A DNA stretch of 64,000 nucleotides, from assembly GCA_009773515.1 (NCBI GenBank), contig WSXX01000012.1, forward strand, positions 62,001 to 126,000. Direction: 5' to 3'. The notes under the pieces are model-generated. The model was not told where the DNA came from. It saw only the letters and a list, made by a program, of their open reading frames with translations, and ran no database searches. Positions 24,944 to 42,982 of the stretch are shown here, one piece after another. Position 1 is the first letter of the stretch, and the number at the start of each line of letters is the position of its first letter. A program made the translations under genes and the position numbers. This DNA is from Bacteroidota bacterium (GTDB lineage Bacteria > Bacteroidota > Bacteroidia > Bacteroidales > Lentimicrobiaceae).

Positions 24944-26944
24944 TTAATCCAACAATATTTCTGAGATAGACCTTTCAATTTCTTCTTTCAGTCCGACTAC
25001 CACTTTTACCTTTTTATAAGAAGGATAATTGACAATGATTTTATCTGCATATTTCATTGCGATTTTATAGTATTTTAGATTGTCAACATATGCCGAATCA
25101 CATGAATAATAAAGTTCACTTATTTTATGGTATATTTCCGGAGTAAATTCCGTGTCAGGATATTTCTTTATGATTGATTTGTATTTTTCTATGGCTGTCA
25201 GATTAAAGGAGTTGTCACCACCCTCGTGGGAACCACCTTCTATGTGGCTTAAAATTAAAAATTCAGCATCATCAGCATATTTACTTTTTGGGTATTTTTT
25301 CAATAGGCTTTCAAAAAATAAAAAAGGGAATGTCATATCTATTGAACTTACTTCAGTTTCGGATCCTACATGAAGAAATAAATCATAATATGCCTTACCT
25401 GATAGCCACAATTTTTCATCTGGTGGAAGGCTTGAAGAATTGATTGATGTTATTGATTTGTAACTTTTTGCGACCTCCCTCATTTGATTATTGTGGTAAT
25501 CTGTTATGAAATCAGGGTAAGAATGGTTCAAAATGGAATCAAATCCCAATGATTCTTTAAGTTTACCATTATGATTAGCCACCCTTATGGCTTGCAAATA
25601 AAATAGTGCAATTATTTCGGTGTCATTTATAGAATCCAAAACATACTTTTCCAAAGATTTTATTTCTTCGAAGTTTTTAGGTAGCCGCCATTTTAAGGAT
25701 TCTTTAATATCATTCAAATGAAATTGAATGCGTTTGCTTTGTGAATTACTGAATTTCGTGTGCAGGATTTTATACGAATTATAAGAGCTGATAAAATCAA
25801 ATGTCTTATAGATGCCAAGTGAGTCTATCAAATCATTCAATCTTTTCTCTTCATTTACAAAACCACTTATGTCGATTGATTTTTTAAACAAATAGGCTTT
25901 TTCGTAAATCTCAATACCATGCCATGTATTAATGTACAGGTATTTTGAATCTACAATTGCATTATATATTCTTTCCTCAATGGTGAACTGATGCGTTGAA
26001 TAATCAATCTTGTTAAACCACAGAATTTCATTGTCATAATACAACCAGATCAGGTCATTAGTATTTAGTAGTTTATAATCTCGCAAACCGTAACCTATTG
26101 GAATCGATTCAATTGAATCATTGATCAGATTGTATTTCAGAATGGCTTTTTCTGAGTTCTGGAGTGGAATCCATGCTATTTCATCATCAACGATAACATT
26201 ATCAATTAAATAGTTAGGGTAATGCATTTTTTTTTCAAGATCTCCTTTTTTTATTCTGAGGTTATTGTTCTGGTAAGTAGTAATTTCAACATCCTTTATA
26301 TTTTTGCTGGCATAGATATTTGAATTCTTTTCTCTTGTTTTAACAATGCTATCCTTATCTATATCAAACTCATACATATCGTTAATCAAAAGAAGGCTAC
26401 TGCTGATTTTTTTGATGTTATTAACATTAACTCCCTCAAAACTATGGCTCTTAACCGCAGCTTTATAATTTCTGTCTAAAAGATATAATCCTTCTAATGT
26501 TCCGATTACAATATTGTTTTCCAGAAAGCATATTCCTGAGACATGCTTAACGGATTTAAATTCAATATAGCTTTCATTTACAGTGTTGTAAGCAATTAAA
26601 CCACTTCTAAAATTACATATCCAGATCAATTCCTTATCTATTGTATCTCTGACTATATTGTCCTTTTTTAACCCATATGAATATTTTCCGAATTTATTAT
26701 CCAGATTCGTCCAGGAGCTATCAGTTAGTTTTAATTCAAAAGAGGGCCCGTTCGTGTTAAATGTCCATATTGCATTGGACCCGATAGGTGAAATCATAAA
26801 ATCATCAATCCCAATGGTATCGTTACTTAATTTTGCGAAATCCTTAATATCGATACTAATAAAAGGTTTTGAGTCTTTTTGAAGATTACCGGTTGAACAG
26901 CTGAGTAGAAATATCGATAGTAAAATTATGATTGAGTTTCTCAT
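24944..26944 (-). CDS. Large lipoprotein: beta-propeller-like N-terminus, TPR-like C-terminus
   Basis: A 666-residue protein with a lipoprotein signal (MRNSIIILLSIFLLSCSTGN, lipobox LSC, Cys16). Residues about 40-350 have repeated short strands (SGLIAYNTVNESYIEFKSV, NNIVIGTLEGLYLLDRNYK, DEIAWIPLQNSEKAILKYN, TNDLIWLYYDNEILWF) typical of two-component-regulator-type propeller blades. Residues about 520-666 contain helical repeats with PKSKYADDAEFLILSHIEGG and KYPDTEFTPEIYHKISELYYSC, resembling TPR/outer-membrane-lipoprotein motifs. I do not recognise a named family. It stands alone on the minus strand between unrelated genes. Confidence 0.75.
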   Translation of the reverse strand: MRNSIIILLSIFLLSCSTGNLQKDSKPFISIDIKDFAKLSNDTIGIDDFMISPIGSNAIWTFNTNGPSFELKLTDSSWTNLDNKFGKYSYGLKKDNIVRDTIDKELIWICNFRSGLIAYNTVNESYIEFKSVKHVSGICFLENNIVIGTLEGLYLLDRNYKAAVKSHSFEGVNVNNIKKISSSLLLINDMYEFDIDKDSIVKTREKNSNIYASKNIKDVEITTYQNNNLRIKKGDLEKKMHYPNYLIDNVIVDDEIAWIPLQNSEKAILKYNLINDSIESIPIGYGLRDYKLLNTNDLIWLYYDNEILWFNKIDYSTHQFTIEERIYNAIVDSKYLYINTWHGIEIYEKAYLFKKSIDISGFVNEEKRLNDLIDSLGIYKTFDFISSYNSYKILHTKFSNSQSKRIQFHLNDIKESLKWRLPKNFEEIKSLEKYVLDSINDTEIIALFYLQAIRVANHNGKLKESLGFDSILNHSYPDFITDYHNNQMREVAKSYKSITSINSSSLPPDEKLWLSGKAYYDLFLHVGSETEVSSIDMTFPFLFFESLLKKYPKSKYADDAEFLILSHIEGGSHEGGDNSFNLTAIEKYKSIIKKYPDTEFTPEIYHKISELYYSCDSAYVDNLKYYKIAMKYADKIIVNYPSYKKVKVVVGLKEEIERSISEILLD

Positions 26945-27110
26945 TTGCAGATATTACTTTGGATTGCGGCAGAATTACTTAAATCAAATTATTTCAACAA
27001 ATATAAAAACTTTTCTAAAAGCCCAGCATTCTATTGAACGTGTGTAAGTGAGAAATGCAAGGTTTTACATTGATTCGCTGTTCAATATGTTTCTTCCTGA
27101 CAAAATTGAT

Positions 27111-27962
27111 TCATTTAAAGCTTCTTTCCATCGGGTGCCCAATCAGAAACGTCACCTTCAAACCATATCTGCTCTTTATTTTGCCAGCTTTCCATGAATA
27201 ATTTCCGGGGTTAACTTCATTGGCAATCTGTAAAAGTTCTTCAGGGCGGTATAAGCGGATGATGGAAACAATGCCATCCCAAACCGTGCAAAAAGGAATT
27301 ACCGGAATGAGATAGGTAAAAAATAACCTTGAAAACCGGAAAGGCCTGAAGAAAGGTGTGAAAAAGAAAAATAGAATCGGATGAAACAGAATAATAGCCA
27401 GAATAGCCAGTATGTTTTTATCTCCACCGTCAAAAATCCCGATTCCGGAATTGGCATCTACCGCATTTTTTATTACGGATTTTGCAGTGCTTTTGTCGAA
27501 ATGATGGAAGCCTGAAAAAATGGTTCTGAAACCTTTAAGGTTCGAAGGAACATCTGCTGCATCAACCGAAGCATCAATAAATGAAATGCTGCCATTTGTT
27601 TTAGCCGATAAGTATTGATATGCACTTATGTTGGGATATTTATCGGTGAGGATTATTTTGATTTCCTTTTCAGATTGTGCATGAAGTTCATTTTTAATCT
27701 GCTCAATGGCACCGCCTCCACCCGAGCACAAATCAATAATCTGACTTGTTTTTGTGATATTCATTCCTTCGATCAGCAAAGGAACAACGGGCCGGTAAAA
27801 ATCAACTTTAGTTATCAGAAAACGCAGATAGTCTGTCATACTTTCCCTGATGGTATTGGGAAACCAGTCCAGATCTTCAAATTCAAAAAGGTAATCTCTG
27901 AGTTTTTTGCTTTTGCCACCAAGGCACCAGGGCACCAAGTCGCACAAATTTATTTTGCTCAT
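27111..27962 (-). CDS. Membrane-associated class I SAM methyltransferase (last gene of type III PKS cluster)
   Basis: A 283-residue protein. Motif I of SAM-dependent methyltransferases is visible as SQIIDLCSGGGGAIEQIKNEL near residues 72-92, followed by a motif-II-like acidic strand (KIILTDKYPNISAY) and RTIFSGFHHFDKST (the usual F.FHH region). Unusually, about 50 residues near 192-240 are strongly hydrophobic (ILAIILFHPILFFFFTP and LFFTYLIPVIPFCTVWDGI), suggesting membrane attachment. Its start overlaps the 3' end of the upstream hydroxylase gene by 4 bp, so it is translationally coupled to the cluster. It probably methylates a lipidic phenol or quinone made by the upstream enzymes; this is inference from context. 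Confidence 0.8.
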   Translation of the reverse strand: MSKINLCDLVPWCLGGKSKKLRDYLFEFEDLDWFPNTIRESMTDYLRFLITKVDFYRPVVPLLIEGMNITKTSQIIDLCSGGGGAIEQIKNELHAQSEKEIKIILTDKYPNISAYQYLSAKTNGSISFIDASVDAADVPSNLKGFRTIFSGFHHFDKSTAKSVIKNAVDANSGIGIFDGGDKNILAILAIILFHPILFFFFTPFFRPFRFSRLFFTYLIPVIPFCTVWDGIVSIIRLYRPEELLQIANEVNPGNYSWKAGKIKSRYGLKVTFLIGHPMERSFK

Positions 27963-29611
27963 TTGGTAAAACTTAGTGACTTCCTGGCAAGCTCTTTTTT
28001 AATTTTAACCGGGGCATAGTGAATTGGCATGAGTAAATGCTCCAGAAATTTGCTTAACTGACTGGAATTCATGGTTGCAGATCGCAATGCGATGTAAGCA
28101 TCCGGTCGGATCAGATAATATCCGGAAAACCTGATGCCAAGCATTGTGTACAACTTTTCAGTTTCAGGCAGTTTGTTTATCAAAACCACCTTAAGGTTAT
28201 ACTTTTTTGATAAAGATTTTATTTCAGGCGTTAACTCCTGAGCAAATACCAGAATTGTAAACCTTGTGGGGTCAAGTATTTCGTGACTGTTGGTTTGATT
28301 TTGATTGTAAATAAAATCAGCAAACGGAAATCTGCATCCTGGTTTTGGCGATCCGTTAAAAAACTTTTTTTCATCATCTTTTTCCGTAGGGAAATCTGAT
28401 TGATAACGAATGCCAATCTGTGAAATGGACTTAAAAAACTTTAGCCGTGATTCTTCTTTGTTTGCCAGTTTTGGGAATATTTTCATGAAGAAGAACTTCA
28501 GGACAGAAGTTCGGAATAGTCTGACAGCCGGATTTGCACTTGTCACCATTTTAAAAACCACATCGCTGTAACGTGCAAAACCTTTTGAAACGCCCAGGCG
28601 CTCAGATGAGTAGGAATCGAGAAGTTCGGGTTTTGCTCTTTGTTTTAACACTAAAGCCAGTTTCCACGCCAGGTTATGCGCATCCTGAATGCCTGTATTC
28701 ATTCCCTGAGCGCCAACAGGCGTATGCACATGTGCCGAATCGCCGGCCAGAAAACAATTTCCAACACGAATGGTGCGGGCATATTTTTGCTGAGAATGTG
28801 ATACTGAAAACCATTCGGTATCTTGTATATTAAAATTCAGGGAATTCAAATCCTGATTGCCGTTTATAATGGTTTCAAGACTAATTCTATCCGATGTTTT
28901 TATAGTTTTCGGAAAGCTTCCATCAACCCTCCACCTTTTGTTGCGCAACGGGAAAAACCCGGCCACTGATTTTTTTGTAAAAGCTATTGAAATTGCACCT
29001 GAACGGATTTCAGTGTTTGCGCTGCAATCAAGAATAAAAATGGGTTTCGGGTAAGTTTTACCCTCAAAAGGAATATTCAGAAAGTTTCTGATGGCACTGT
29101 TGCTTCCATCAGCGCCGATAATAAAATCAGATTCAATGGTTTGTGCTGAACCGTCCGGCATAAAGACATCCGTTGATATTTTGTTTTTACCCTGCACAAA
29201 GCTTTTAAAAATCACACCTCTTTCAAGGCTGTGGCCGCGATCATTCAGAAATTTAAGTAACAACTTTTCGGTTTCCGATTGTTCGAGCATCAGCAAAAAA
29301 GGGAATTGCGTAAGATTCTCACCGATATTTTTTATTGATGTGCCGGCTATTTTTTTTGCATCATACAGAATGTCAATTTCATCGGCAACAATTCCCTTGC
29401 TTATTGCTTCGCTTGCAATTCCCAGCTGCCGGAAGATTTCAAGGGTGCGTGCCTGCACAATCAAAGCCCCGGAATTGGCAGAAGGGGAGTCTTTTTTGTC
29501 AATAATCCGAAACGATACCTTGTGAATGGCTAACTGGCATGCCATCATCAGGCCGGTTGGTCCGGCACCCACGATAAGGACTTCGGTTGATGGCTTAAGG
29601 GTTTGTTCCAT
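27959..29611 (-). CDS. FAD-dependent aromatic hydroxylase (phenol 2-monooxygenase/TfdB-type)
   Basis: A 550-residue flavoprotein if started at the ATG at 29611 (MEQTLKPSTEVLIVGAGPTG); an in-frame ATG at 29632 adds seven residues, and both overlap the end of the upstream methyltransferase gene. The three family fingerprints are present: GAGPTG at 15-20 (FAD Rossmann), GADGSNSAIRNFL at 166-178 (the DG motif) and FLAGDSAHVHTPVGAQGMNTGIQDAHNLAWKL around 287-317 (the GD motif). The C-terminal ~170 residues are the thioredoxin-like domain of the PHBH/phenol-hydroxylase class. Known chemistry: NAD(P)H- and O2-dependent ring hydroxylation. In the srs-type pathway a homologous flavoprotein (SrsC) oxidises the alkylresorcinol ring to a hydroquinone or quinone, which is the likely job here. 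Confidence 0.93.
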   Translation of the reverse strand: MEQTLKPSTEVLIVGAGPTGLMMACQLAIHKVSFRIIDKKDSPSANSGALIVQARTLEIFRQLGIASEAISKGIVADEIDILYDAKKIAGTSIKNIGENLTQFPFLLMLEQSETEKLLLKFLNDRGHSLERGVIFKSFVQGKNKISTDVFMPDGSAQTIESDFIIGADGSNSAIRNFLNIPFEGKTYPKPIFILDCSANTEIRSGAISIAFTKKSVAGFFPLRNKRWRVDGSFPKTIKTSDRISLETIINGNQDLNSLNFNIQDTEWFSVSHSQQKYARTIRVGNCFLAGDSAHVHTPVGAQGMNTGIQDAHNLAWKLALVLKQRAKPELLDSYSSERLGVSKGFARYSDVVFKMVTSANPAVRLFRTSVLKFFFMKIFPKLANKEESRLKFFKSISQIGIRYQSDFPTEKDDEKKFFNGSPKPGCRFPFADFIYNQNQTNSHEILDPTRFTILVFAQELTPEIKSLSKKYNLKVVLINKLPETEKLYTMLGIRFSGYYLIRPDAYIALRSATMNSSQLSKFLEHLLMPIHYAPVKIKKELARKSLSFTK

Positions 29612-30320
29612 AATTTTTTGTTTTTCCAACAATCAGTAAGCGGAAGAATCGCTTTTTCTGAATGGTATAATTACTGATGTTTGCATTTAAAAGCAATTGT
29701 CTTAGTTCGCTGATGCTGAATGCGCGAAGAACCGATACTGGCCCGTCATGTTTTGCCAGTGCAGTTCCGTTTAATAAACGCGGGAAAAGCCATGCGCTGT
29801 AATAAGCCAGCCTGTTTCTTTGCAGATCGTTGATCACAAATCCTGTAGTGACTTTTTCGCTGAAATATTTGAACAAGCGAGTAAGCTGATCATCACTTAA
29901 GTGGTGGCAAAACAAGGAACAATGCACAATATCAACAGATGTATTCCGATCAAGAAATTCCTGATAATCGGCAGCAACACCCGTGATTTCCGGATAGGCA
30001 CGGCAATGATTTTTTAAATATGCAATCACATCTGCATTCATATCCACACCTGTTAACTGTACTTTAAAATTGTTTTTGCGAGCCCAATCGGCAATTGCCC
30101 GCATCGAATCGCCGCTTCCGCATCCGAGGTCAACCACCTGATAGATTTTAGCAGGATCTGCAATCAATTGTTTTATGCCTTGCAACGAAATGGAATGTCC
30201 ACCTGTGATTCTGTTCAGAATATCAAGTTCCCTGAGATTTCTGAAAAGCAAATCCTTCGGGATGTTTGTTTCATCGAGCAATTCCTTTTCATCAGAGCGA
30301 AATTTGAATTTTGAATCCAT
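29595..30320 (-). CDS. Class I SAM methyltransferase (type III PKS cluster)
   Basis: A 241-residue protein with motif I VVDLGCGSGDSMRAIADWA (near residue 66), the acidic end of beta2 in LTGVDMNADVIAYLKNH and a motif-III-like region VDIVHCSLFCHHLSDDQLTRLFKYF. The C-terminal part (LAKHDGPVSVLRAFSISELRQLLLNANI...) is as in UbiE/COQ5-like small-molecule methyltransferases. It lies 14 bp after the polyketide synthase gene and overlaps the start of the hydroxylase gene, so it is one operon. It parallels SrsB, the O-methyltransferase of phenolic-lipid operons; the exact methylated position is not predictable. Confidence 0.92.
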   Translation of the reverse strand: MDSKFKFRSDEKELLDETNIPKDLLFRNLRELDILNRITGGHSISLQGIKQLIADPAKIYQVVDLGCGSGDSMRAIADWARKNNFKVQLTGVDMNADVIAYLKNHCRAYPEITGVAADYQEFLDRNTSVDIVHCSLFCHHLSDDQLTRLFKYFSEKVTTGFVINDLQRNRLAYYSAWLFPRLLNGTALAKHDGPVSVLRAFSISELRQLLLNANISNYTIQKKRFFRLLIVGKTKNYGTNP

Positions 30321-30334
30321 CCGTAAGTTTCTGG

Positions 30335-31528
30335 TTATTGGATGGATACAACTTTACGTTTGCTGTTGACACGCTTGTTTGACTTGCTTACAACCGCATT
30401 CTTATTTGTGCTTGATTTCTTTGTCGCGTTTGTTTTGTAGGTCAGCAATGCGGATTCAATACTCAAACCCGGGCCAAACCCAATGGAAAACACAGTTTCA
30501 CCTTCAGCGGGTTTTGACAACATGATTTCATTCAGCACAAAAAGTATGGTGGGCGACGACATGTTGCCGCAATCAGAAAGTACTTTATAGGAATACTGCA
30601 AATCGGTATCCTGCAATTTTGCTGATTTTCTGACGGAATCAAGTATTTTTTTTCCTCCCGGATGTACAGCCCATTTATCAATGGCAGAAGGATCAAAGTT
30701 TAACTTTTCGCTGGCTTTCTGAACGATTTCATTCACCTCATCACCAATAAATTCGGGTATTCCGGTATCGAGAACCATTTCGAAATTTACCGGCGTAATA
30801 TTCCAACCCATCAGATTTTTGCCTTTGTAAAGCATCAACGAATGGAATCCATTAATGGAAAGTCCTGGCTGCTGATTCTTTTTTGCAGCTGTATCGGAAA
30901 CTACTACCACCGCTGCTGCTCCATCGCCAAATACAGTGTTTGCCAGTAAATTATCGTTGTTGTCGATCGCCTGAAAATGTAAGGTGCACAACTCTACACA
31001 AACAATCAGCACTTTGGCATTTTCGTCGGTGCGGGTTATCATATCCGCGAGATTTAAGGCCGGAAATGCAGCATTGCAACCCATAAAATTGATGGCGGTA
31101 TGAAAAATATCTTCGGGTAAGTTCAATTGCTCAATCAATGCAGCTCCGATTCCTGGAGAATAAATTCCTGTGCAGGAAACGGTAATCAGGTGGGTTATTT
31201 TAAAACCGGCGATGTTTGTATCCAATTTTTGAAATGCGTTCTGTATGGCATTGATGGCAAGTGAAGCCGCATTTTCTTTAAATACATTCATCCTTTTACT
31301 TACATCCGGAACTTCAAGGTTTTTATCAAAAAGCTGAGATTCTGATTGCTTGTTACCGAAATCAGGTACAACGGAATAACGGGTTTTTATGCCACTGTTG
31401 TGGAATAAAATATTCAGCTTTCGCGAAGCAATGGCATCGTTGTAGGCGCTTTTCATAAACTCAAGGATGTTGCCTTGGTCTGCGCTGCATTGTGGAACGG
31501 CTGTTCCTATGGAGATTATTGTGCTCAT
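30335..31528 (-). CDS. Type III polyketide synthase (chalcone/stilbene synthase superfamily)
   Basis: A 397-residue homodimeric ketosynthase-fold enzyme. The catalytic triad is intact: C151 in FMGCNAAFPALNLA, H289 in KWAVHPGGKKILDSV and N322 in SDCGNMSSPT. The signature FGDGAAAVVV (about 200-209) and the C-terminal FSIGFGPGLSIESALL (GFGPG loop) are also present. The enzyme should extend a CoA-linked fatty starter with malonyl-CoA units and cyclise to an alkylresorcinol or alkylpyrone, going by characterised bacterial homologues such as SrsA and ArsB/C. The last ~28 residues (NATKKSSTNKNAVVSKSNKR...) are a basic, low-complexity tail beyond the usual end of the fold, which is unusual. It lies 1 bp from the prenyltransferase gene. 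Confidence 0.96.
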   Translation of the reverse strand: MSTIISIGTAVPQCSADQGNILEFMKSAYNDAIASRKLNILFHNSGIKTRYSVVPDFGNKQSESQLFDKNLEVPDVSKRMNVFKENAASLAINAIQNAFQKLDTNIAGFKITHLITVSCTGIYSPGIGAALIEQLNLPEDIFHTAINFMGCNAAFPALNLADMITRTDENAKVLIVCVELCTLHFQAIDNNDNLLANTVFGDGAAAVVVVSDTAAKKNQQPGLSINGFHSLMLYKGKNLMGWNITPVNFEMVLDTGIPEFIGDEVNEIVQKASEKLNFDPSAIDKWAVHPGGKKILDSVRKSAKLQDTDLQYSYKVLSDCGNMSSPTILFVLNEIMLSKPAEGETVFSIGFGPGLSIESALLTYKTNATKKSSTNKNAVVSKSNKRVNSKRKVVSIQ

Positions 31529-31529
31529 G

Positions 31530-32435
31530 TTAAAACCAGGTATAGTGATTGTTAAGAATCAGTACCAGAAAGTACAGATTCATGAAGGTTGAGGTAAGGA
31601 GGTTCATTTTCATTGTATTTTCAAAGTTTGCGTGGTTCGTATCCTTCCTCACTTTGGCAAACCACATCGACAAATCAATAATTACAGGCAACGTCAATAC
31701 AATAAACAGCAACATTTCAATCTGCTGATTCTTCAGATATAAATAATAGAAGAGGAATACGGTTGCAATTGAGAACAATATCCCTGAAAACACAAATGTG
31801 CCGTTGTATCCGAGTTTATAGCTGATGCTGATTACTCCGTCATTTTTATCTGCTTCGTGCTGATAAATCTGCGTAAGCGGATAAACACTGCCAATAAAGA
31901 AACTTGCCACACTCATACAAATGATGTTGTTGATTGTGAAAAATGCTGCAAAAGAAAACGTGGAAATTGCTGAAGAAGCCATCATATAAACAAAAGCTCC
32001 CTGAAAGAGAAACACAGTCAGGAATCCAATAACCGCGTATTTTTTTAACCTCACATTCCTGTAGCTGTAGGCCCTGGAAGTCAGAATGAAAATCAGAACG
32101 AAAAGCGAGAAACTCCAGGAAATCAACAATCCACCTAACACCGCCATAATATCCATAAGCAGCGTTGCCTTAAATAAATTGCGGGAAACTTCGGGCGGAT
32201 GTTTCAGCCCGCCGATACTTCCTGTGTCGCGGTCCTGAAAACTGTTGTACCCGTTGCTGGACGGAAAAACAAGCAAGTGTAATATAACAAATGCAATGGC
32301 TGTAGTCTGCCAGTTGATGGTGCCGGCCTGACTAACAGCAAACAGAAACACAGGCATCAGAAAGAACGAAAAAGGCAAGCGCAAATGCTTAACAGTGCTT
32401 TTATCAAACCATGAAAGGATAAGTATTTTCTTCAT
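31530..32435 (-). CDS. UbiA-family membrane prenyltransferase (first gene of type III PKS cluster)
   Basis: A 301-residue polytopic membrane protein from the ATG at 32435 (MKKILILSWFDKS); the ATG at 32453 adds six residues. Aspartate-rich motif 1 is N64-S-F-Q-D68-R-D70 in SNGYNSFQDRDTGSIGG, and motif 2 is the YQHEADKNDGVISISYK region (D196, D199). There are about eight to nine hydrophobic helices. UbiA enzymes attach a polyprenyl or related chain to aromatic rings or other acceptors at the membrane. Its adjacency (1 bp) to a type III PKS suggests it prenylates or otherwise modifies the polyketide phenol. However, many Bacteroidota UbiA homologues have untested substrates, so the acceptor is unproven. 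Confidence 0.93.
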   Translation of the reverse strand: MKKILILSWFDKSTVKHLRLPFSFFLMPVFLFAVSQAGTINWQTTAIAFVILHLLVFPSSNGYNSFQDRDTGSIGGLKHPPEVSRNLFKATLLMDIMAVLGGLLISWSFSLFVLIFILTSRAYSYRNVRLKKYAVIGFLTVFLFQGAFVYMMASSAISTFSFAAFFTINNIICMSVASFFIGSVYPLTQIYQHEADKNDGVISISYKLGYNGTFVFSGILFSIATVFLFYYLYLKNQQIEMLLFIVLTLPVIIDLSMWFAKVRKDTNHANFENTMKMNLLTSTFMNLYFLVLILNNHYTWF

Positions 32436-32599
32436 CTTTTTAAAGTTAAACAAATGAAAACCAGGTTGGTTAATAAAAATATGATATCAGGTTTTTTTTT
32501 GCAAATTTTTAACAACTCAGCATTAGACTGCCAGGGTTCATGATGTGCCCGTAGTTTTCGACCGCAACAGTTATTGAATAGCTCCATTAATTTTTCATT

Positions 32600-32899
32600 T
32601 TATATGCTTTGTTCGTAAAGGCGAAGGCGGTTGCGGAGCACAATAATTTCGTCATGCATGCTACGAATGCGATCGAGCAAATGCGAAATGGCTTCAATAC
32701 CTTCGATGTTTATGTCCAGTTCGTAGTAAAAACGGATGAATTTTTCCACCTGTGGAAGCTGATCCACGACAATAAATCCATTTTTATCGATGGTTTGAAT
32801 TTCGATTAGTCCGTTTTGCTGTAAGGAGCTGATAAATGAAATCTCAATATTGTGACTGGCACAGAATTCATTCACGTCAACTAAATATTCGGTTTGCAT
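32600..32899 (-). CDS. cbpM: CbpM-type chaperone modulator
   Basis: A 99-residue protein placed 10 bp after the CbpA-type DnaJ gene, the usual order for the cbpA-cbpM pair. The sequence (LVDVNEFCASHNIEISFISSLQQNGLIEIQ...EVEKFIRFYYELDINIEGIEAISHLLDRIRSMHDEIIVLRNRLRLYE) has the MerR-like 'helix-turn-helix then coiled coil' build of CbpM (DUF1153-like MerR_2 family). In E. coli CbpM binds the J-domain of CbpA and inhibits its co-chaperone activity. Confidence 0.9.
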   Translation of the reverse strand: MQTEYLVDVNEFCASHNIEISFISSLQQNGLIEIQTIDKNGFIVVDQLPQVEKFIRFYYELDINIEGIEAISHLLDRIRSMHDEIIVLRNRLRLYEQSI

Positions 32900-32909
32900 G
32901 GCTAATGTT

Positions 32910-33797
32910 TTAAGATTTGGATAATTCGGTAAACAATTCTTTTTGCTTGTCAGTTAGATTTGTAGGAATCTTAATATTCCAGGTTACAAACAAAACGCCA
33001 AAATGCCCTTCATTTTTGTAAACCGGGAATCCTTTGCCTTTAAGCTTTATTTTGCTTCCATTTTGAGTTTCGGGAGCAACTTTAAGTTTTACCTGGCCAT
33101 CCAGGGTGTCAATTGTGATTTCGCCTCCAAGCACTGCCGTATATAAATCAAGATCAACGGTAGTGTACAAATTATCACCTAAACGTTTAATGCGGGTGTG
33201 ATCTGCTATTGAAAAGGTAATATAAAGGTCACCTTTAGGCCCGTTGTTTCGGCCCGGACCGCCATGCCCGGGAATTTTAATAGTTTGTCCGTTTTCGATA
33301 CCGGCAGGAATGGTAATCCGTATTTTTTTTCCGTTTACCGTTAAAGTTTGTTTCTGAGTTTTATAGGCATCAATAAGATTCAATTGTAATTCAGCTTTAA
33401 AATCCTCGCCTCGGTATTGGGCCTGCCTGCTTCGGCCAGTACCTGCCGAACCACCAAACAGGTTTTCAAAAAAGTCGGAAAAATCGCTTTCGGATTGTCC
33501 ACCGGAGAATCTCTGTCTGCCTGATGTTGCCGATTGTCTTTCATATTGCTTTTGTTTTTCATATTCATCAGCATGTTGCCAATCCTTGCCGTACTGGTCA
33601 TATTTTTTTCGCTTCTCAGGATCGCTCAGCACTTCGTTGGCTTCGTTTATTTGCTGGAATTTGCGGTTCGCATCCTTATAATCAGGATTTAAATCAGGAT
33701 GATATTTTCGGGCTAATTTCCGGTAAGCACTTTTGATGTCCTTTTCCGTTGCCGTTTTATTGATTCCTAAAATTTTATAATAATCGACGAAATCCAT
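32910..33797 (-). CDS. cbpA: CbpA-type DnaJ co-chaperone (no zinc finger)
   Basis: A 295-residue protein. The J-domain (about 1-70) contains the HPD tripeptide at 33-35 in [14 protein letters not shown] Gly/Phe-poor linker rich in Gln/Lys/Arg follows ([17 protein letters not shown]), then [17 protein letters not shown]. The C-terminal client-binding domains ([48 protein letters not shown]...) come directly, without CxxCxGxG zinc repeats, which defines the CbpA/DnaJ class B type. It works with DnaK on unfolded proteins, and in E. coli is induced in stationary phase. Confidence 0.95.
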
Positions 33798-33863
33798 GAT
33801 TTTGGGTGTGAAATGTTTTAGAGTTTCTGGTTGAGGTTCGCTGAGTTCGCAATGGGTCTGGCT

Positions 33864-34445
33864 TTATAACAGGTCATTTAATTGCTTAATAAACGCCTCA
33901 TTGTTATATCCGGCAATGCCTTCATGTTTCAATACTACTTTCCCTTCTTTGTTGATAACCACCGTTGTGGGCAAAGTACCACTGAAAATTTCGTCGGGTA
34001 TGGCTCCGGATCGGGTTTGTAAAGGAATTGAAAATTGATTTTTTTTCAGATACTTTTCAGCTTTTGACTTGACTTCGTCTTCGTTGATAAACAGAAAAAC
34101 AAACCTGTCATCATTTTGAAATTTCCGGTACAACGCATCCAATTCAGGCATTTCGGCGCGGCATGGCGGACACCACGATGCCCAGAAATTGATAAATACA
34201 ACCTTACCTCTTAACCCGGCGGTGGCGGCTGTTATTCCTTTTGAATCTGTAAATGAAAAGGAAGCCGATGCAGGTAGATTATTTGCGGCATGCTTTATTT
34301 CTGCTTTATACAAACCAGTTAAAACCAATTTTTGCAAAAGAAAAGCCTTTGCATCCGGAACGAAGAGAAAAACAGCCAGAAAGCCATAAAGCAAAATGCT
34401 CAGCCATCTTTTTTTTACTACACTGAAAAAAGTTTTTGTATCCAT
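33864..34445 (-). CDS. TlpA-like membrane-anchored thioredoxin-fold protein
   Basis: A 193-residue protein from the ATG at 34445 (MDTKTFFSVVKKRWLSILLYGFLAVFLFV); the longer frame would need a TTG start at 34469. It has an N-terminal signal-anchor helix (about 15-30), then a thioredoxin-like domain with active site WASWCPPCRAEMPELD and the cis-Pro region SGTLPTTVVINKEGKVV. The 'KGKVVFINFWASWCPPCR' style places it with TlpA/ResA-type disulfide reductases exposed to the periplasm. These often serve cytochrome c maturation or envelope redox control; here no ccm genes are near. Confidence 0.92.
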   Translation of the reverse strand: MDTKTFFSVVKKRWLSILLYGFLAVFLFVPDAKAFLLQKLVLTGLYKAEIKHAANNLPASASFSFTDSKGITAATAGLRGKVVFINFWASWCPPCRAEMPELDALYRKFQNDDRFVFLFINEDEVKSKAEKYLKKNQFSIPLQTRSGAIPDEIFSGTLPTTVVINKEGKVVLKHEGIAGYNNEAFIKQLNDLL

Positions 34446-34505
34446 AAACTGTGGTGATTTTATTGCCAAAAGTTGAACCTTTTTGACAGAATTTTGATAC
34501 CTGAA

Positions 34506-34898
34506 TTATAAACTGTGAATCAGATATGCTATCAGAAAAATTCCGACGGCAAGTATTGCGAGTGTGAGCAGTAAATCAAGTAATGATGAGGGTTGGAATG
34601 TATCTGAGTTAATTTGTTTTTCAACTTTTTTGTATCTTAAAAATGAGAGTAAAGCGAGCAAAATACCAAGACCGACAAGGAAGATTCCAACAACAACTGA
34701 ATATCCAGACGTAGGAGGTGCCGGAGTTTCTAATGTTGTTGTCCCCAGAATAACCGACATTTGTTTCATGAACAAAGCAAACCTTTCGACAACAAATCCA
34801 AATGCCATTATTCCGATACTGGTTCGAATCCAGGCAAGATAGGTGCGTTCATTTGCCAAATGATCACCGGTTGATCCCTGTCTTTTTTCTCCCTTCAT
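34506..34898 (-). CDS. DUF202 (YidH-like) small membrane protein
   Basis: A 130-residue protein from the ATG at 34898 (MKGEKRQGSTGDHLANERTYLAWIRT), the typical DUF202 opening with the 'LANERT.LAWIRT' motif; the ATG at 34979 would overlap the preceding gene's end and add a 27-residue basic extension. Three hydrophobic helices follow (about 28-48, 64-88, 105-127). The family has no known function beyond small membrane proteins, sometimes linked to vacuolar transporter chaperone-like complexes. It lies 34 bp after the CheB-like gene on the same strand. Confidence 0.9.
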   Translation of the reverse strand: MKGEKRQGSTGDHLANERTYLAWIRTSIGIMAFGFVVERFALFMKQMSVILGTTTLETPAPPTSGYSVVVGIFLVGLGILLALLSFLRYKKVEKQINSDTFQPSSLLDLLLTLAILAVGIFLIAYLIHSL

Positions 34899-34932
34899 AC
34901 AATCCTGTTGTTGAGATAAAATCTTCAAACTA

Positions 34933-35526
34933 TTATTCAGCTTTTTCCTTGTGTGCAATAAGTCTGATCTTTTCAGCAATTTCTTCAGGTGAAAGAATAT
35001 AATCGATGCACCCGCTGTTAATTGCGCTTTCGGGCATATCAGGTTGTGATGCTGTTTCGGGTTTCTGAGCTATGGTGATGCCACCAACTTCTTTTATGCC
35101 GCAAAGTGCATCTGCGCCATCGCCATCGTAGCCTGAAACTATGACTGCCACCAATTTGCCATCCCAGTGATGAGTGAGCGAACGCATAAAAACAGTAATT
35201 ACATCGGGCCATCCCCATGGTTTTGAAATGGGTTTTAAACGAAATTCACCATTAAGAACATGTAAGTCGCGTTTTGAGGGAATGATGAAAACGTTATTGG
35301 GAATGATGTCTAATTTCTCCTCAATCAGTGTGACAGGCATCTGAGTGTAATTCGGAAGAATCTTGTGTAAGTGGGTGTCCACCGTTCTCAGATGAGTAAC
35401 AATAACTAATGCAGCCCCCATGTCAGATGGAAGATTTTTCAATAAACGTATATAAGCATCCAGACCACCGGCAGAACCGCCCACGCATATGATAGGAAAG
35501 TTTTTTGCAACATTTTTAGCTTTCAT
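34933..35526 (-). CDS. Stand-alone CheB-type protein-glutamate methylesterase domain
   Basis: A 197-residue protein consisting only of the CheB catalytic domain. The N-terminus has the Ser motif PIICVGGSAGGLDAYIRLLKNLP, the His region VIVTHLRTVDTHLHKILPNYT, the IIPSKRDLHVLNGEFRL stretch and the Asp-bearing VIVSGYDGDGADALCGIKEVGG. There is no receiver domain and no CheR or chemoreceptor nearby, so it is an orphan; such stand-alone CheB proteins are frequent in Bacteroidota and may deamidate/demethylate non-chemotaxis targets (inference). Confidence 0.92.
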   Translation of the reverse strand: MKAKNVAKNFPIICVGGSAGGLDAYIRLLKNLPSDMGAALVIVTHLRTVDTHLHKILPNYTQMPVTLIEEKLDIIPNNVFIIPSKRDLHVLNGEFRLKPISKPWGWPDVITVFMRSLTHHWDGKLVAVIVSGYDGDGADALCGIKEVGGITIAQKPETASQPDMPESAINSGCIDYILSPEEIAEKIRLIAHKEKAE

Positions 35527-35713
35527 CCTGCTTTCTTGATTAATTGGTAAAGGCCATCAAAACAGATGAACTTATCGCGCACTAAATTATAGTGCATTGC
35601 AACAATGTGACTTATAGAACTTTGAAAATATGTATCGTCATTCACACATTCGTGGTGCTTTTTCCTTTGTGAAAAAATGAAAATATCTTCCTCAAAGAAT
35701 TCACATTTTATTA

Positions 35714-35735
35714 TCCCCCTTTCGAAAAAGGGGGA
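35714..35735. terminator. Perfect hairpin between the CheB-like and Ca2+-ATPase genes
   Basis: TCCCCCTTT pairs with AAAGGGGGA around a CGAA loop. It sits about 80 bases past the stop codon of the minus-strand ATPase gene and could be its terminator, though the minus-strand flank is only A/T-rich (ATAATAAAA) rather than a T-run. Confidence 0.45.
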
Positions 35736-35815
35736 CGATTACTTTCGTGTTTTTTGAAACATCTGTTTGTAGAAGGAAGGGATACTGCAAGAATGGTGAA
35801 GTTATCTCGAGAGTT

Positions 35816-38494
35816 TCACTTAACAAGATGATCCGTGCTCATTTTTCTTTGGTTTGAACGAATGAAAACCTTGAAGATTTCGTTCGCCAGCAGCGGAACC
35901 AATCCCAATGAAATGGCTATTATCCAGCCTTGCAGGTCGAGCATCTGTAAATGGAAAGCGCGTTGCATTACCGGTATTTCAATCACAATTAATTGAAGAA
36001 GTATTCCCAACACTATGGCTCCTGTGAGGTATTTATTGGTGAAAAAGCCAATCCGGAAAATTGATTTTGAAGCATGCCTTACAGCAAACGAATAGAATAA
36101 CTGGCACATAACCAGAACCATAAAAGCCATGGTTCGTGCATATTCCACGATATTAACCGGAACGGTATGGTCAAACGGACTGTAACCATGTTCGTAATAT
36201 CCGAACCAGAATGCACCAATAGTCAGTAACCCAATTAAAACCCCGCCAAGAATAACATGAAGTGCAGCGCCGCCGGCAAAGAAGCTTTCATTGGCATCGC
36301 GCGGCTTTTCCTTCATCACATCAGGACTGCCGGGGTCCATGCCAAGGGCGACTGCCGGAAACGAATCGGTGACGAGGTTAATCCAAAGAAGCTGAGTGGC
36401 GATTAACGGAGCTTCCCAACCTATAAGTATGGCGACAAACATTGAAATTACTTCGCCCAGGTTACAGGTCAGCAGAAAGATAACTGACTTTTTAATGTTG
36501 TTGTAAATGTTTCGTCCATGCTCTATGGCTGAAACGATGGTTGCAAAATTATCGTCGGTCAGAATCATATCCGCCGCTCCTTTCGCTACATCGGTGCCTG
36601 TAATTCCCATTGCTACGCCAATATCCGCAGCATTTAGCGAAGGGGCATCGTTTACACCATCGCCGGTCATTGAAACAATGTTTCCATGCGATTTCAGGGC
36701 ATGAACTATCTGCACTTTATGGGCGGGCGATACCCGGGCAAAAACACGATAATTAACTGCTCTTTCAACAAATTCCGCTTCCGGAAAATTTTCGATATCC
36801 TGACCGGTAATCGCCTGGTCAATTTTATCGGCAATTCCCAGTTCGCTGGCAATGGCAAAGGCGGTTTTTTTATGGTCGCCGGTAATCATTATGGTTGTAA
36901 TCCCGGCAAGTTTCGCTTTCTGAATGGAATCTTTTACTTCCGGTCGGGGAGGGTCGATCATTCCAACCAACCCGATCAGAATCAGATTCTTCTCCATTTC
37001 TTCAGCTTTAATGACTGAATCTGCAGTTTTGTAAGCTACGCCCAGCGTACGAAGCGCGTTTTCCGACATGACGTCAGTCGCCTTGCGGAATTGTTGTTTA
37101 TGTGCTTCGGTAATCGGAATGACTTCCCCTTTCTCCAGAACGTACGTGCTGATATTCAACAGATTGCCAATGGCACCTTTCGTATAAACGGTAAACTTTT
37201 CATTTTCTTCGTTGAGCGTGGACATTAATTTACGGTCGGAATCAAAAGAAACTTCAGCGGTACGTTTGTTTTCAGCATTCACCTTTTCACGGTCAATTTT
37301 CAGATCATCCGCCATAAGCAACAAGGCAATTTCGGTTGGATCGCCTGTGCCGGTTTCATTCTCAAAAGTTGCATCGGAACTGAGCACCATCGCTTTGGCA
37401 AGCAGTCTGACATCTTCAGTAGAATCATTCTCTTTGCCCCGTTCAATGGCAATTTCACCTTCCAGATTGAAATAGCGCTGAACAGTCATTTTGTTCTGCG
37501 TTAAGGTTCCTGTTTTATCGGTACAAATCATGTTGACCGATCCAAGTGTTTCAACAGCAGGCAACTTTTTGATGATGGCGTTTTTCTTCGACATACTGGT
37601 TACGCCTATCGAAAGCACCACTGCCACAATGGCTGCAAGTCCTTCGGGAATTGCTGCAACGGCCAGTGAAACCGATATCAGAAACATTTCAAGCAGGTCG
37701 CGTCCCTGAATCAGGGAAATCAGGAAAATAAAGACACAGATACCGATAGCGATTTTGCCAAGGGTTTTGCCGAGTTTGTCAAGCCGGATTTCAAGCGGAG
37801 TATCCGACTTCTCTTCTGTATTGATGATGTTCGCGATTTTGCCAACTTCGGTGTTCATTCCGGTTTCAACCACCACGCCAATGCCCCGCCCATTGGTAAC
37901 AAGCGTTGACATAAATGCGGTATTCGCGCGATCTCCAAGCGGTGTTTTCAGATCGGGGTGAGTTACTGAAGCGTCTTTTTCTGAAGGAACAGATTCGCCC
38001 GTTAAAGCCGATTCTTCTATTTGCAGATTGGCAGATTCGATTAAACGAATATCCGCAGAAATGTAGCGCCCGGCATCCAGAATTACAATATCTCCGGGCA
38101 CAATTGTATCGGAATCAACCTCTTTTACATCTCCGTTTCTGCGGACAAGCGCTTTTGGAAACGACATTTTCTGGAGCGCCTCAATCGCTTTTCCGGCTTT
38201 CACTTCCTGAACTACACCCAGTGTGGCATTTACAATGATAACGAGCAAAATGATTGCAGCATCGATATATTCGCCCATAAACAAAGTGATAACTACTGCT
38301 GCAAACAATATATAGATCAGCCATTCCTGAAGTTGGGCAACAAACAGTTGGAAAATGTTTTTCTTCTTCTTCGCAAGTAACTTATTGTGGCCGTATTTTT
38401 CTAACCTGACTTTTGCTTCTTCATCGGAGAGCCCTTCCGATACAATAACATCAAGTTCTTTAAGAATATCTTCGTTTGGTTTCGTAAACCACAT
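35816..38494 (-). CDS. P-type Ca2+-transporting ATPase (P2-type)
   Basis: An 892-residue P-type ATPase. Cation_ATPase_N is visible at 1-45. The actuator domain has TGES at about 165-168. The TM4 ion site motif is AIPEGL near 281-286, as in Ca2+ pumps of the SERCA/PMCA group. The phosphorylation site is DKTGT with D326. The nucleotide domain includes the KGA motif (VYTKGAIGNLL), and the hinge TGDGVNDAPSLNAADIGVAMG is present. Ten TM helices are expected, with the C-terminal cation-ATPase domain including ATQLLWINLVTDSFPAVALG. It probably exports Ca2+ (or Mn2+) from the cytosol. It is monocistronic, with a hairpin downstream. Confidence 0.95.
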   Translation of the reverse strand: MWFTKPNEDILKELDVIVSEGLSDEEAKVRLEKYGHNKLLAKKKKNIFQLFVAQLQEWLIYILFAAVVITLFMGEYIDAAIILLVIIVNATLGVVQEVKAGKAIEALQKMSFPKALVRRNGDVKEVDSDTIVPGDIVILDAGRYISADIRLIESANLQIEESALTGESVPSEKDASVTHPDLKTPLGDRANTAFMSTLVTNGRGIGVVVETGMNTEVGKIANIINTEEKSDTPLEIRLDKLGKTLGKIAIGICVFIFLISLIQGRDLLEMFLISVSLAVAAIPEGLAAIVAVVLSIGVTSMSKKNAIIKKLPAVETLGSVNMICTDKTGTLTQNKMTVQRYFNLEGEIAIERGKENDSTEDVRLLAKAMVLSSDATFENETGTGDPTEIALLLMADDLKIDREKVNAENKRTAEVSFDSDRKLMSTLNEENEKFTVYTKGAIGNLLNISTYVLEKGEVIPITEAHKQQFRKATDVMSENALRTLGVAYKTADSVIKAEEMEKNLILIGLVGMIDPPRPEVKDSIQKAKLAGITTIMITGDHKKTAFAIASELGIADKIDQAITGQDIENFPEAEFVERAVNYRVFARVSPAHKVQIVHALKSHGNIVSMTGDGVNDAPSLNAADIGVAMGITGTDVAKGAADMILTDDNFATIVSAIEHGRNIYNNIKKSVIFLLTCNLGEVISMFVAILIGWEAPLIATQLLWINLVTDSFPAVALGMDPGSPDVMKEKPRDANESFFAGGAALHVILGGVLIGLLTIGAFWFGYYEHGYSPFDHTVPVNIVEYARTMAFMVLVMCQLFYSFAVRHASKSIFRIGFFTNKYLTGAIVLGILLQLIVIEIPVMQRAFHLQMLDLQGWIIAISLGLVPLLANEIFKVFIRSNQRKMSTDHLVK

Positions 38495-38556
38495 GTTTTC
38501 TGCAATTAAATTGGGATGAAAAGAAGTTCAGTCCTAAAAACTTTAGCTGAAATCAG

Positions 38557-38598
38557 GAAGCCGGAACCTCAGTCTTCTGACTTCTGACTTCCGGCTTC
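38557..38598 (-). terminator. Hairpin downstream of the release-factor-like gene
   Basis: GAAGCCGGAA (38557-38566) pairs perfectly with TTCCGGCTTC (38589-38598), 12 bases past the stop of the minus-strand gene. There is no T-run on either side, so its role as terminator is tentative. The loop carries CTTCTGACTTCTGA, similar to the repeat at 2420-2440. Confidence 0.4.
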
Positions 38599-38609
38599 AG
38601 ATTTCTGAT

Positions 38610-39653
38610 TTAATACCGCACCTTCAGCGCAATGTTTCCGAAAGATTTGAATTCTTCGGAGTCGGTAAAGATGGCCCGTCCTTTTTTTGATATCACATCC
38701 CAGGCCAGGTTGCTGGTAATGTCGTCAATAACCCCAGGCAACGTAACATCCTCAACGGTATGAAATGAATATTGTCCGTTCATTTTCACTGCCTGATGGT
38801 AATTGTCGTGGGTAATTAATAAATCACCGCGGCCAGCTTTAACTGCCGTAAATATTTCAAGCAAATCTGTAATTACTTTGCCTTCTCTGTTCGCATCCTG
38901 CATTTCGCGTATTGCAAGGGCTCTATGTTCATCCTGAATGGCAACTACAATTTTCCAGGCTTCTGAACCCAGGGTACTAAATGGTGAGCCGTTATGGTTA
39001 TTGCTGACCGGGCCAAAGTAAATTGATGGTTTGTCGGCAACCTGCATAAAACGGCTCCAGTTATTTTCGGTGCTGACAACCACAATATACATGTCTGTTT
39101 TGTTGTAAATTTTCAACAGCGCTTTGTCAATCTGGTTGAAAAATTCATCAATCTGACTGTCGGTTTGTTTCCAATCGTTGGCTTTAAACGGGAAATCATC
39201 GTCTATAATTTCTATAGAAATGGCATCGTTGGTGGCTTTCAATAACCTTACATCCGATTTTGATAACACCAGAATAAAGTATTCTTCGATCCGGTTAAAG
39301 TCTTTAATGAGCGGTTTTACAACAAAATTTTCGGCAACTGAAACTGAATTTTTAAATATTGGCCACGATGATTTTACAATTTCTGTTGTTGTTCCGGAAA
39401 GGAAAATGTGAAGACTATCCAGGCTATAGTTTACGTCAATCAGTTCATCAAGTGAATCTATTTTTTCGAGCAAAGATTTCACTTCGAACTGTCCAAATTC
39501 ATTTATTACATGGTCGCGGGCTTCTGCCATGAGTTTTTCCAGTTCTGTAATATCTTCAAGATTTTCGGGAAATGTACGACATGTATTCATGGAAATTGTA
39601 ACACACGGGAAACTTCGTTCAGTGGCGAGTTTTTCTAGTTTATTTTTTTGCAT
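38610..39653 (-). CDS. Bacterial archaeo-eukaryotic release factor (BaeRF)-like protein
   Basis: A 347-residue protein from the ATG at 39653 (MQKNKLEKLATERSFPCVTISMNT); an ATG at 39725 would add 24 unsupported residues. The pattern 'PCVTISMNTCRTFPENLEDITELEKLMAEA', followed by SLDSLHIFLSGTTTEIV (the eRF1-like beta barrel) and IEEYFILVLSKSDVRLLKA, then a mostly helical second half with WKIVVAIQDEHRALAIREMQDANREGKVITDLLEIFTAVKAGRGDLLITHDNY, matches my memory of the BaeRF family 3-type proteins, which resemble the eRF1 middle and C domains. These are thought to act on stalled ribosomes or be hibernation/stress factors; no experiment is implied here. The gene has its own promoter region and is monocistronic. 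Confidence 0.8.
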   Translation of the reverse strand: MQKNKLEKLATERSFPCVTISMNTCRTFPENLEDITELEKLMAEARDHVINEFGQFEVKSLLEKIDSLDELIDVNYSLDSLHIFLSGTTTEIVKSSWPIFKNSVSVAENFVVKPLIKDFNRIEEYFILVLSKSDVRLLKATNDAISIEIIDDDFPFKANDWKQTDSQIDEFFNQIDKALLKIYNKTDMYIVVVSTENNWSRFMQVADKPSIYFGPVSNNHNGSPFSTLGSEAWKIVVAIQDEHRALAIREMQDANREGKVITDLLEIFTAVKAGRGDLLITHDNYHQAVKMNGQYSFHTVEDVTLPGVIDDITSNLAWDVISKKGRAIFTDSEEFKSFGNIALKVRY

Positions 39654-40222
39654 TATAGATGTATTGAATCCCGCTTCTGGCGGGTCAGGTATGCCTGTTT
39701 TAGCAACAGTTAAAGATAGACGCACTATTTGGGATGCATTTTACAAAACTTTGGGAAAGAATTTCATTATTCACACAATTGAAGATGTAGTGATTGATTT
39801 GGCTAATTGCCTCAAAGCAGAGCGTTAAGTTGTTGGAAGTTGCTGCAGATATTGAAAATCTGAGTTCTTCTAACTGTAAAGTCATTACAAACCTTTGCGC
39901 TTTGCTGTCATTTCCCTCATGCTATACACTATAAGCGCCGGCTTAAACGATCAGAAAACTCCTTAATGCACTGATAATTAGGCTTTGGGGATATTTTCCC
40001 ACAGCACTTTCAGTGATCTCTGTTATTTCAAAAGCATAGAAGTGGATTGAGGAATATGTCAGTCGGGTAAGGTTAATTAAGTTTAAGGTCAAACACAAAC
40101 CGGTTTCTCACAGCGCGTTAGAAAGTGGGAATCATTAAATAATTTCAAAAGATTGTGTAACACTCAAATTATCTATCAGAAATATTTTTGCATTTCTTAG
40201 TCAATACCAAAATTAAATCATC

Positions 40223-42556: not shown

Positions 42557-42636
42557 ATCAAAGAGATGAAGAACCGCTGATTAAATAAGTAAAACGAATT
42601 ATTTTGATTCTTCTTACTGAAAACAAACAGGATGTG

Positions 42637-42978: not shown

Positions 42979-42982
42979 TGCT

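Follow-up and report, generated by a model that had tools for sequence, protein, structure and literature searches.

What would be made by a set of five tightly packed genes that joins a type III polyketide synthase (PKS) to a membrane prenyltransferase in a member of the Bacteroidota? Such a set lies on the minus strand of the window analyzed here, a stretch of 64,000 nucleotides (positions 62,001 to 126,000 of contig WSXX01000012.1, assembly GCA_009773515.1) from a bacterium of the family Lentimicrobiaceae. All five open reading frames (ORFs) are present and intact at 27111-32453, and they encode a predicted UbiA-superfamily membrane prenyltransferase, a type III PKS that is likely an alkylresorcinol synthase, a class I S-adenosylmethionine (SAM) methyltransferase (MT1), a flavin adenine dinucleotide (FAD) monooxygenase, and a second, predicted SAM methyltransferase (MT2). 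A sequence-only reading had proposed, in hedged form, a phenolic-lipid pathway that might be prenylated or lead to a quinone. The order of the PKS, MT1, and monooxygenase genes, a Trp in the PKS, the linkage of UbiA to the PKS, and the precedent of the actinomycete agq cluster support that proposal, and we consider it on balance probable that the five genes constitute a phenolic-lipid (meroterpenoid) pathway of the Srs/Pkq type with prenylation added. Such a pathway would end in a membrane-located alkyl-hydroquinone or quinone that is both methylated and prenylated.

The chemistry and step order that follow are what we infer, as are the starter, the prenyl donor and its length, the product, and its role. 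The PKS would combine a fatty acyl starter with three malonyl units to give a 5-alkylresorcinol or alkylresorcylic acid, MT1 would methylate a ring carbon or oxygen, and the monooxygenase would hydroxylate the ring with O2, yielding a methylated alkyl-hydroquinone or quinone. The membrane UbiA enzyme would place an isoprenyl group on the ring or a ring oxygen, and MT2, where present, would add a further methylation, perhaps at the membrane.

The genes had been described as overlapping or at most 15 bp apart, and the ORF coordinates and junctions bear this out. The UbiA gene (31530..32453 with a TTG start; likely ATG at 32435) is separated by 1 bp from the PKS gene (30335..31528), which is followed after 14 bp by the MT1 gene (29595..30320). 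MT1 overlaps the monooxygenase gene (27959..29632 with a TTG start) by 38 bp, or by 17 bp from the likelier ATG at 29611, which is close to the start position of most homologues; the monooxygenase and MT2 (27111..27962) share a 4-bp ATGA overlap. Scans for promoters and terminators gave no excess over expectation from shuffles (17 found vs 18.0, and 3 vs 6.8, respectively), and the pattern TTG-(17-22)-TAnnTTTG, which we take to be the Bacteroidota promoter consensus, is absent from the minus strand of 26700-34000.

The PKS, the only match to PF00195 in the genome, belongs to the type III family by its Chal_sti_synt N and C domains (85.7 and 72.4 bits; Pfam cut-off 27) and by a Cys-His-Asn triad, whose predicted integrity is confirmed in alignment: C151, H289, and N322 are invariant in all eight aligned PKSs. 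We annotated 46 PKS loci across the phylum and plasmid records, many of them picked for UbiA or for PKS subtype, so that numbers drawn from them are counts and not frequencies. The triad is kept in 45 of the 46, the exception being a Microbacterium plasmid copy (L139) that was matched in two pieces. The closest solved relatives by sequence are Steely1, whose product we take to be an alkylresorcinol, and then Pks18, an alkylpyrone synthase. W242 is found in 24/24 UbiA-linked PKSs, in 44/46 annotated PKSs, and in Steely1; its place is held by Phe in L134 and L152 and by Leu in Pks18, and the Trp is missing from the aligned 4b0n and 7cb3 as well. The corresponding position, ArsB 281, carries a Trp that marks the resorcinol-forming SrsA, FtpA, PKS10, and PKS11, and ArsC has Gly there (PMC9927152, PMC5916927; for these and all papers cited below, statements hold for the excerpts of each paper that were available). 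By alignment, W242 would occupy this resorcinol-linked place, which counts in favor of a phenolic-lipid pathway.

The same observations bear on two other products. Pks18 being the second-best solved relative, the enzyme could make alkylpyrones that are then methylated, with the monooxygenase and UbiA acting elsewhere, and pyrones are common by-products of bacterial PKSs. We regard this as very unlikely, given the Leu of Pks18 against the uniform Trp of the UbiA-linked PKSs and a ring hydroxylase that pyrone synthesis does not need. The PKS could also take a short starter or no acyl starter, in the manner of DpgA or orsellinate synthesis, so that UbiA prenylates a small phenol on the way to a ubiquinone-like isoprenoid quinone. 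DpgA, a 3,5-dihydroxyphenylacetyl-CoA synthase, is indeed the best NCBIfam model (180.8 bits), and a UbiA enzyme, a ring hydroxylase, and two methyltransferases mirror the logic of ubiquinone synthesis. However, that score falls far short of the equivalog cut-off of 425, on which ground we rejected a DpgA identity; no further biosynthetic genes of the DpgA kind stand beside the PKS, and W242 and the context of the PKS-MT1-monooxygenase trio point to alkylresorcinols. A small-phenol quinone therefore seems improbable. In family f124 the conserved Trp is replaced by Phe (L134, L152), and at L152:5054-9657 the PKS adjoins ketosynthase-like and hotdog-fold dehydratase-like genes; because of both features, this branch of PKSs may make a different product.

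The two partner enzymes of the trio are of the kinds that the Srs/Pkq-type pathway calls for. MT1 scores 51 bits against Methyltransf_25 (cut-off 27), and its best NCBIfam model, PRK06202, reaches 136 bits, under its cut-off of 243. The monooxygenase matches FAD_binding_3 (239.4 bits; cut-off 22) and, at its C terminus, the ring-hydroxylase domain Rng_hyd_C (28.3 bits; cut-off 27.5), and its GxGxxG, DG, and GD FAD motifs, read by eye, are intact, which places it among the class A flavoprotein monooxygenases. Its nearest solved structures by sequence are polyketide hydroxylases, rifampin monooxygenase, and 2-hydroxybiphenyl 3-monooxygenase, and this aromatic-hydroxylase character also speaks for the phenolic-lipid reading. 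The likeness in order to srs that had been noted from the sequence fits the description of srsABC of Streptomyces griseus and pkqABC of Mycobacterium smegmatis, in which a PKS is followed in one operon by methyltransferase and hydroxylase or oxidoreductase genes and the resorcinol ring is oxidized to a quinone (PMC9927152). The comparison is one of gene order as described there; those accounts mention no prenyltransferase, and the systems have no second methyltransferase.

The prenyltransferase is what would set the window apart from those systems. Its membership of the UbiA superfamily follows from a Pfam UbiA (PF01040) score of 53.8 bits (cut-off 34.2) and from an AlphaFold model (pLDDT 87.7, built from nine sequences) whose fold search matched DGGGP synthase and AfUbiA with E-values of 2.5e-6 to 8e-5. 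A first alignment, used for a profile search of the Protein Data Bank (PDB), returned apparent chance matches only; a 30-row alignment matched ApUbiA (E 1e-4) and chlorophyll synthase (E 0.015) with HMMER, and through these weak alignments we placed the motif residues; R25, Y129, and K137 are matched by position only. N70, D74, D76, D202, R25, Y129, and K137 are invariant in all 30 aligned proteins. In AfUbiA, metal and diphosphate are bound by N68, D72, D198, D202, R22, and K146, and Y139 is important too (PMC4106721). The cluster family thus keeps these binding residues bar one, a further point for the proposed pathway, and it is probably a prenyltransferase. The strict NDxxDxxxD and DxxxD motifs are replaced by NSxxDxD and QxxxD; in the HMMER alignment ApUbiA likewise has no Asp at the second position, and the Asp aligned with Q198 is absent from chlorophyll synthase too.

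The UbiA-PKS association extends well beyond the window. A search for the same five-gene order in other genomes, named beforehand as a check, found it at four further loci. Three are among the nine returned by a single scan of genome contigs for named relatives, in Natronoflexus pectinivorans DSM 24179 (L017), where the gaps are wider, and in two metagenome-assembled genomes (MAGs; L018 and L022); the fourth is L103. This recurrence shows that the five-gene set is more than chance. UbiA-PKS-MT1-monooxygenase occurs in L019 and L020, and UbiA-PKS-MT1 with a different flavoprotein, of about 380 residues and with DAO as its best Pfam family, in L021 and L025; L023 and L024, from the same MAG, probably come from opposite sides of a break in a single cluster. 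L096-L098, whose contigs equal in length those of L018, L017, and L019, were treated as duplicates of these and dropped, and L104, in which UbiA is cut by a contig end, stands outside the locus counts, as do the cut clusters L023 and L024, which are also outside the tree and W242 counts.

The cluster UbiA is present in 11 of 393 genomes of the order, the window's own included. In an even sample of 395 genomes across the phylum, 178 carry the PKS at 1e-30 and 60 carry UbiA at 1e-20, 26 of them with strong matches (223-553 bits) and 34 with weak ones (78-132 bits). Every one of the 26 strong-UbiA genomes has the PKS (hypergeometric 3e-10, a figure that ignores shared ancestry), as does every one of the 34 others; UbiA and PKS are no more than 1 kb apart in 20 of the strong-UbiA genomes. 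The weak matches all fall in one family, f142, and represent a more distant UbiA relative (e.g. L126:7840-8706 and L153:6806-7693); the one from L126, the only one aligned, shows motifs of the NSxxDxD and QxxxD-like kind. The f142-type UbiA and the PKS are on different contigs in G665 and G447. Plasmid records gave no UbiA relative at 1e-5.

Of the 46 annotated loci, 24, from at least 10 families, have both UbiA and PKS. All 24 have MT1, 11 have the window-type monooxygenase, 12 the other flavoprotein, one neither (L115), and five have MT2. The idea of the five genes as one cluster, then, is upheld by their recurring order and corrected in its extent: UbiA, PKS, and MT1 form the conserved core, the flavoprotein comes from one or the other of two families, and MT2 is an optional member. 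Since the oxidizing enzyme is replaced while the rest of the cluster stays, both flavoprotein families would seem to perform the same kind of step. A fixed five-gene unit we rejected, MT2 being found in 10 of 36 UbiA-positive genomes and 6 of 118 phylum genomes. The genes, their order, their intact catalytic residues, and their linkage across the phylum are in these respects directly observed.

Several observations weigh against a prenylated product, or against the phenolic-lipid pathway as a whole. W242 is a trait of the family rather than a mark of the UbiA-PKS-MT1 cluster alone: MT1 is found at 39 of the 46 PKS loci, being missing from L139 (by an ORF search) and from L117, L125, L131, L132, L133, and L135, and these six PKSs with no adjoining MT1 have W242 too. 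W242 was equated with ArsB W281 by chalcone synthase numbering and by an alignment whose reference sequences were Pks18 and Steely1 rather than ArsB, SrsA, or PKS11. The best NCBIfam model, though far below its cut-off, belongs to an enzyme that makes a different phenol. Most PKS-positive genomes lack the cluster UbiA, and in 6 of the 26 strong-UbiA genomes UbiA is not near the PKS; four of these six keep PKS, MT1, and a flavoprotein together (L119, L121, L123, L151), and the PKS loci of the other two, L117 and L125, have no MT1 nearby. The cluster UbiA family has an invariant Gln (Q198) where AfUbiA has D198. In AfUbiA the D198A change weakens geranyl diphosphate (GPP) binding 45-fold and yet retains it, and in EcMenA changes of the equivalent residue abolish activity or nearly so (PMC4106721). 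Because Q198 replaces a metal-binding Asp needed in EcMenA, the prenyl donor or the activity of the cluster enzyme may differ. Finally, when the PKS promoter was activated in a cloned Micromonospora fragment that carries UbiA, methyltransferase, and PKS genes, the reported products were unprenylated alkylresorcinols (PMC7587189).

The PKS, MT1, and monooxygenase could instead make an unprenylated alkylquinone of the Srs or polyketide-quinone type, with UbiA and MT2 serving another substrate or UbiA having lost prenyl transfer. Q198, the restriction of strong UbiA matches to 26 of 178 PKS-positive genomes with six of them unlinked, and the wide occurrence of the trio without UbiA all fit. On the other side, the operon begins with UbiA in Bacteroidales, and in the window 1 bp separates it from the PKS; no strong-UbiA genome lacks a PKS; and N70, D74, D202, R25, Y129, and K137 have stayed invariant. 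We judge the unprenylated product unlikely, if the most serious of the alternatives.

Characterized systems show that the proposed combination is not without precedent. The agq cluster of Actinoplanes missouriensis was reportedly described by Awakawa in 2011. There, alkylresorcinols made by a type III PKS are prenylated and hydroxylated (PMC10896814), with a UbiA/MenA-like membrane enzyme O-prenylating a small polyketide (PMC4044012), and the products are alkyl-O-dihydrogeranyl-methoxyhydroquinones. Because agq has a characterized product, a prenylated alkylresorcinol pathway is not unprecedented. PKS, methyltransferase, hydroxylase, and UbiA are all in the window; the agq host is an actinomycete, and the comparison is by enzyme class as given in the citing papers, our source for its make-up, rather than by sequence or gene order. 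At the losA locus of Micromonospora endolithica, which underlies the loseolamycins, UbiA, methyltransferase, and type III PKS genes are near neighbors, but an acyl-CoA dehydrogenase takes the place of the monooxygenase and the reported products are unprenylated alkylresorcinols (PMC7587189). One cyanobacterial hierridin-like cluster carries a prenyltransferase (PMC8086630).

Trios without UbiA lend further weight to the phenolic-lipid reading. The hidABC operon of cyanobacteria and the planctomycete trio likewise unite a type III PKS, a methyltransferase, and an FAD oxidoreductase for alkylresorcinols, but in the order methyltransferase-oxidoreductase-PKS (PMC10896814). Planctomycete PKSs from such operons, expressed in a host, gave pentadecyl- and heptadecylresorcinols, and adding one planctomycete methyltransferase and oxidoreductase led to a single, probably C-, methylation, the role of the oxidoreductase being left open (PMC10896814). 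Plasmid records from Psychrobacter urativorans, Paludisphaera borealis, and Deinococcus radiodurans have adjoining PKS, methyltransferase, and FAD oxidoreductase genes, the Psychrobacter PKS being encoded on the opposite strand; the methyltransferases of these three are 25-27% identical to MT1. A fragmented set occurs on a Microbacterium plasmid. The Paludisphaera locus (L137) differs in a shorter flavoprotein that better matches the other family and in a PKS of 33% identity. DarA and DarB are not type III PKSs. They are used instead in the flexirubin/dialkylresorcinol pathway (darA/darB), another Bacteroidota route to an alkylated resorcinol (PMC9606717). Open-access full-text searches aimed at Bacteroidota, with the excerpts consulted from them, turned up no characterized type III PKS product from the phylum. 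The sequence-only reading likewise knew of no characterized Bacteroidota product of the exact set; to it the actinomycete precedent of agq is added here. Soil actinobacteria are known to make molecules of this kind, which have apparently yet to be identified in Bacteroidota.

The fifth gene calls for separate treatment. At the thresholds used, neither Pfam nor NCBIfam has a model that MT2 matches, a relative in L118 scores 22.6 bits against Methyltransf_25 (a weak match, under the cut-off of 27), and a profile search of PDB with a first MT2 alignment gave apparent chance matches only. Its AlphaFold model, built from four sequences, has a pLDDT of 77, with 25 of 283 residues below 50, and a predicted SAM methyltransferase fold. 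The top match is the aromatic C-methyltransferase CouO (TM 0.53/0.63), and NovO (rank 7) and yeast Coq5 (rank 17) follow. Other proteins of the methyltransferase fold, O- and N-methyltransferases included, rank in between, so the matches do not tell the kinds of methylation apart and we set them aside for that purpose. An insertion of lower pLDDT spans about 50 residues, 182-235 or so by eye, most of them hydrophobic. The description of MT2 as a methyltransferase agrees with its predicted fold, and the hydrophobic stretch fits the membrane association ascribed to it.

MT2 occupies the same place in L017, L018, L022, and L103. One of the 10 UbiA-positive genomes with MT2, G097, has a remnant (L100; G097:C101:1777-2019) of 81 positions with two stops directly after the cluster's monooxygenase gene, likely a loss of the fifth gene. 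All six MT2-positive phylum genomes have the PKS. In G477, G571, and G788, of one genus, UbiA and MT2 lie side by side at a distance from PKS-MT1-flavoprotein (L118, L120, L150), which ties MT2 to UbiA; the pairing may reflect a single event. MT2 is not dependent on UbiA, since it occurs in PKS-positive genomes with no strong UbiA match (G426, G430, G447, G483); in the three of these looked at, G430, G447, and G483, it is at a distance from the PKS.

How the cluster came to its present distribution is partly visible in a PKS tree of 48 rows, used for relationships within Bacteroidota only: its outside references, Pks18 and Steely1, have very long branches that join each other, and the placement of SrsA, ArsB, and alkylpyrone synthases is beyond its reach. 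Twelve PKSs from clusters in Bacteroidales and close relatives are joined at 100/100, and the window PKS groups with that of L018, then L017. In the window's own genus, the 18 other sampled members include a single strong PKS match, in G008 (apparently the L022 record), and a weak one in G013 (5e-4). The G008 PKS is only 53% identical to that of the window, which shares 71-73% with PKSs of other families; this pattern and the patchy distribution in the genus suggest that the gene moved horizontally or that losses were extensive. L021, which carries the other flavoprotein, sits inside the 12-row clade at 96/79, a weakly supported position by which the flavoprotein has probably moved or been exchanged on more than one occasion.

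The genomic setting bears on the role of the product. MenB (444.7 bits, above cut-off) is encoded beside another UbiA homologue on contig C30, and the genome has four UbiA homologues, three besides that of the cluster, and cytochrome bd. These marker genes, short of a full pathway search, make it probable that menaquinone is made separately from the cluster and that the host can use the oxygen that the monooxygenase needs. We therefore set aside a cluster that supplies the main respiratory quinone, and the electron-carrier role once floated as speculation is unlikely to be a main one. Upstream of the cluster, at higher coordinates, are genes for CbpM-like MerR, DnaJ, thioredoxin, DUF202, CheB-type, P-type ATPase, and baeRF proteins. 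CheB, alpha/beta hydrolase, P-type ATPase, YtxH/DUF2383, and baeRF genes recur, though not all in each, near the cluster in the window (33864-39725), L017, L018, L019, and L024; as a guess, this neighborhood is a shared, perhaps mobile, stress-related island. Elsewhere in the window, minus-strand ORFs at 9783-10052 and 14629-14895 have near-identical stretches (SCHRLKPC..DFLIAFSFIT), which suggests a repeated element rather than genes, and the plus strand at 41033-44353 encodes, one after another, a KaiC-like ATPase, a KaiB-domain protein, and the product of one more long ORF.

Type III PKSs account for 10.74% of clusters in Flavobacteriaceae (PMC10734526), and in our sample the PKS family reaches nearly half of the genomes of the phylum. 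The five-gene operon is small enough for a single heterologous expression experiment, and the UbiA link across the phylum, the exchange of the oxidizing enzyme, and the altered metal site each pose a precise, testable question. At the far end of what these data would allow, and as a long shot, a sizeable minority of Bacteroidota may have a second lipoquinone, with a ring from a type III PKS and an isoprenoid tail, that works alongside menaquinone, either carrying electrons or acting as an antioxidant in the membrane, when oxygen is low or the cell is stressed; its UbiA enzyme would then form a new subfamily whose metal site is altered (NSxxDxD/QxxxD). If the phenolic-lipid pathway that we favor is true, a major bacterial phylum would hold a class of membrane phenolic lipids with a prenylated branch.

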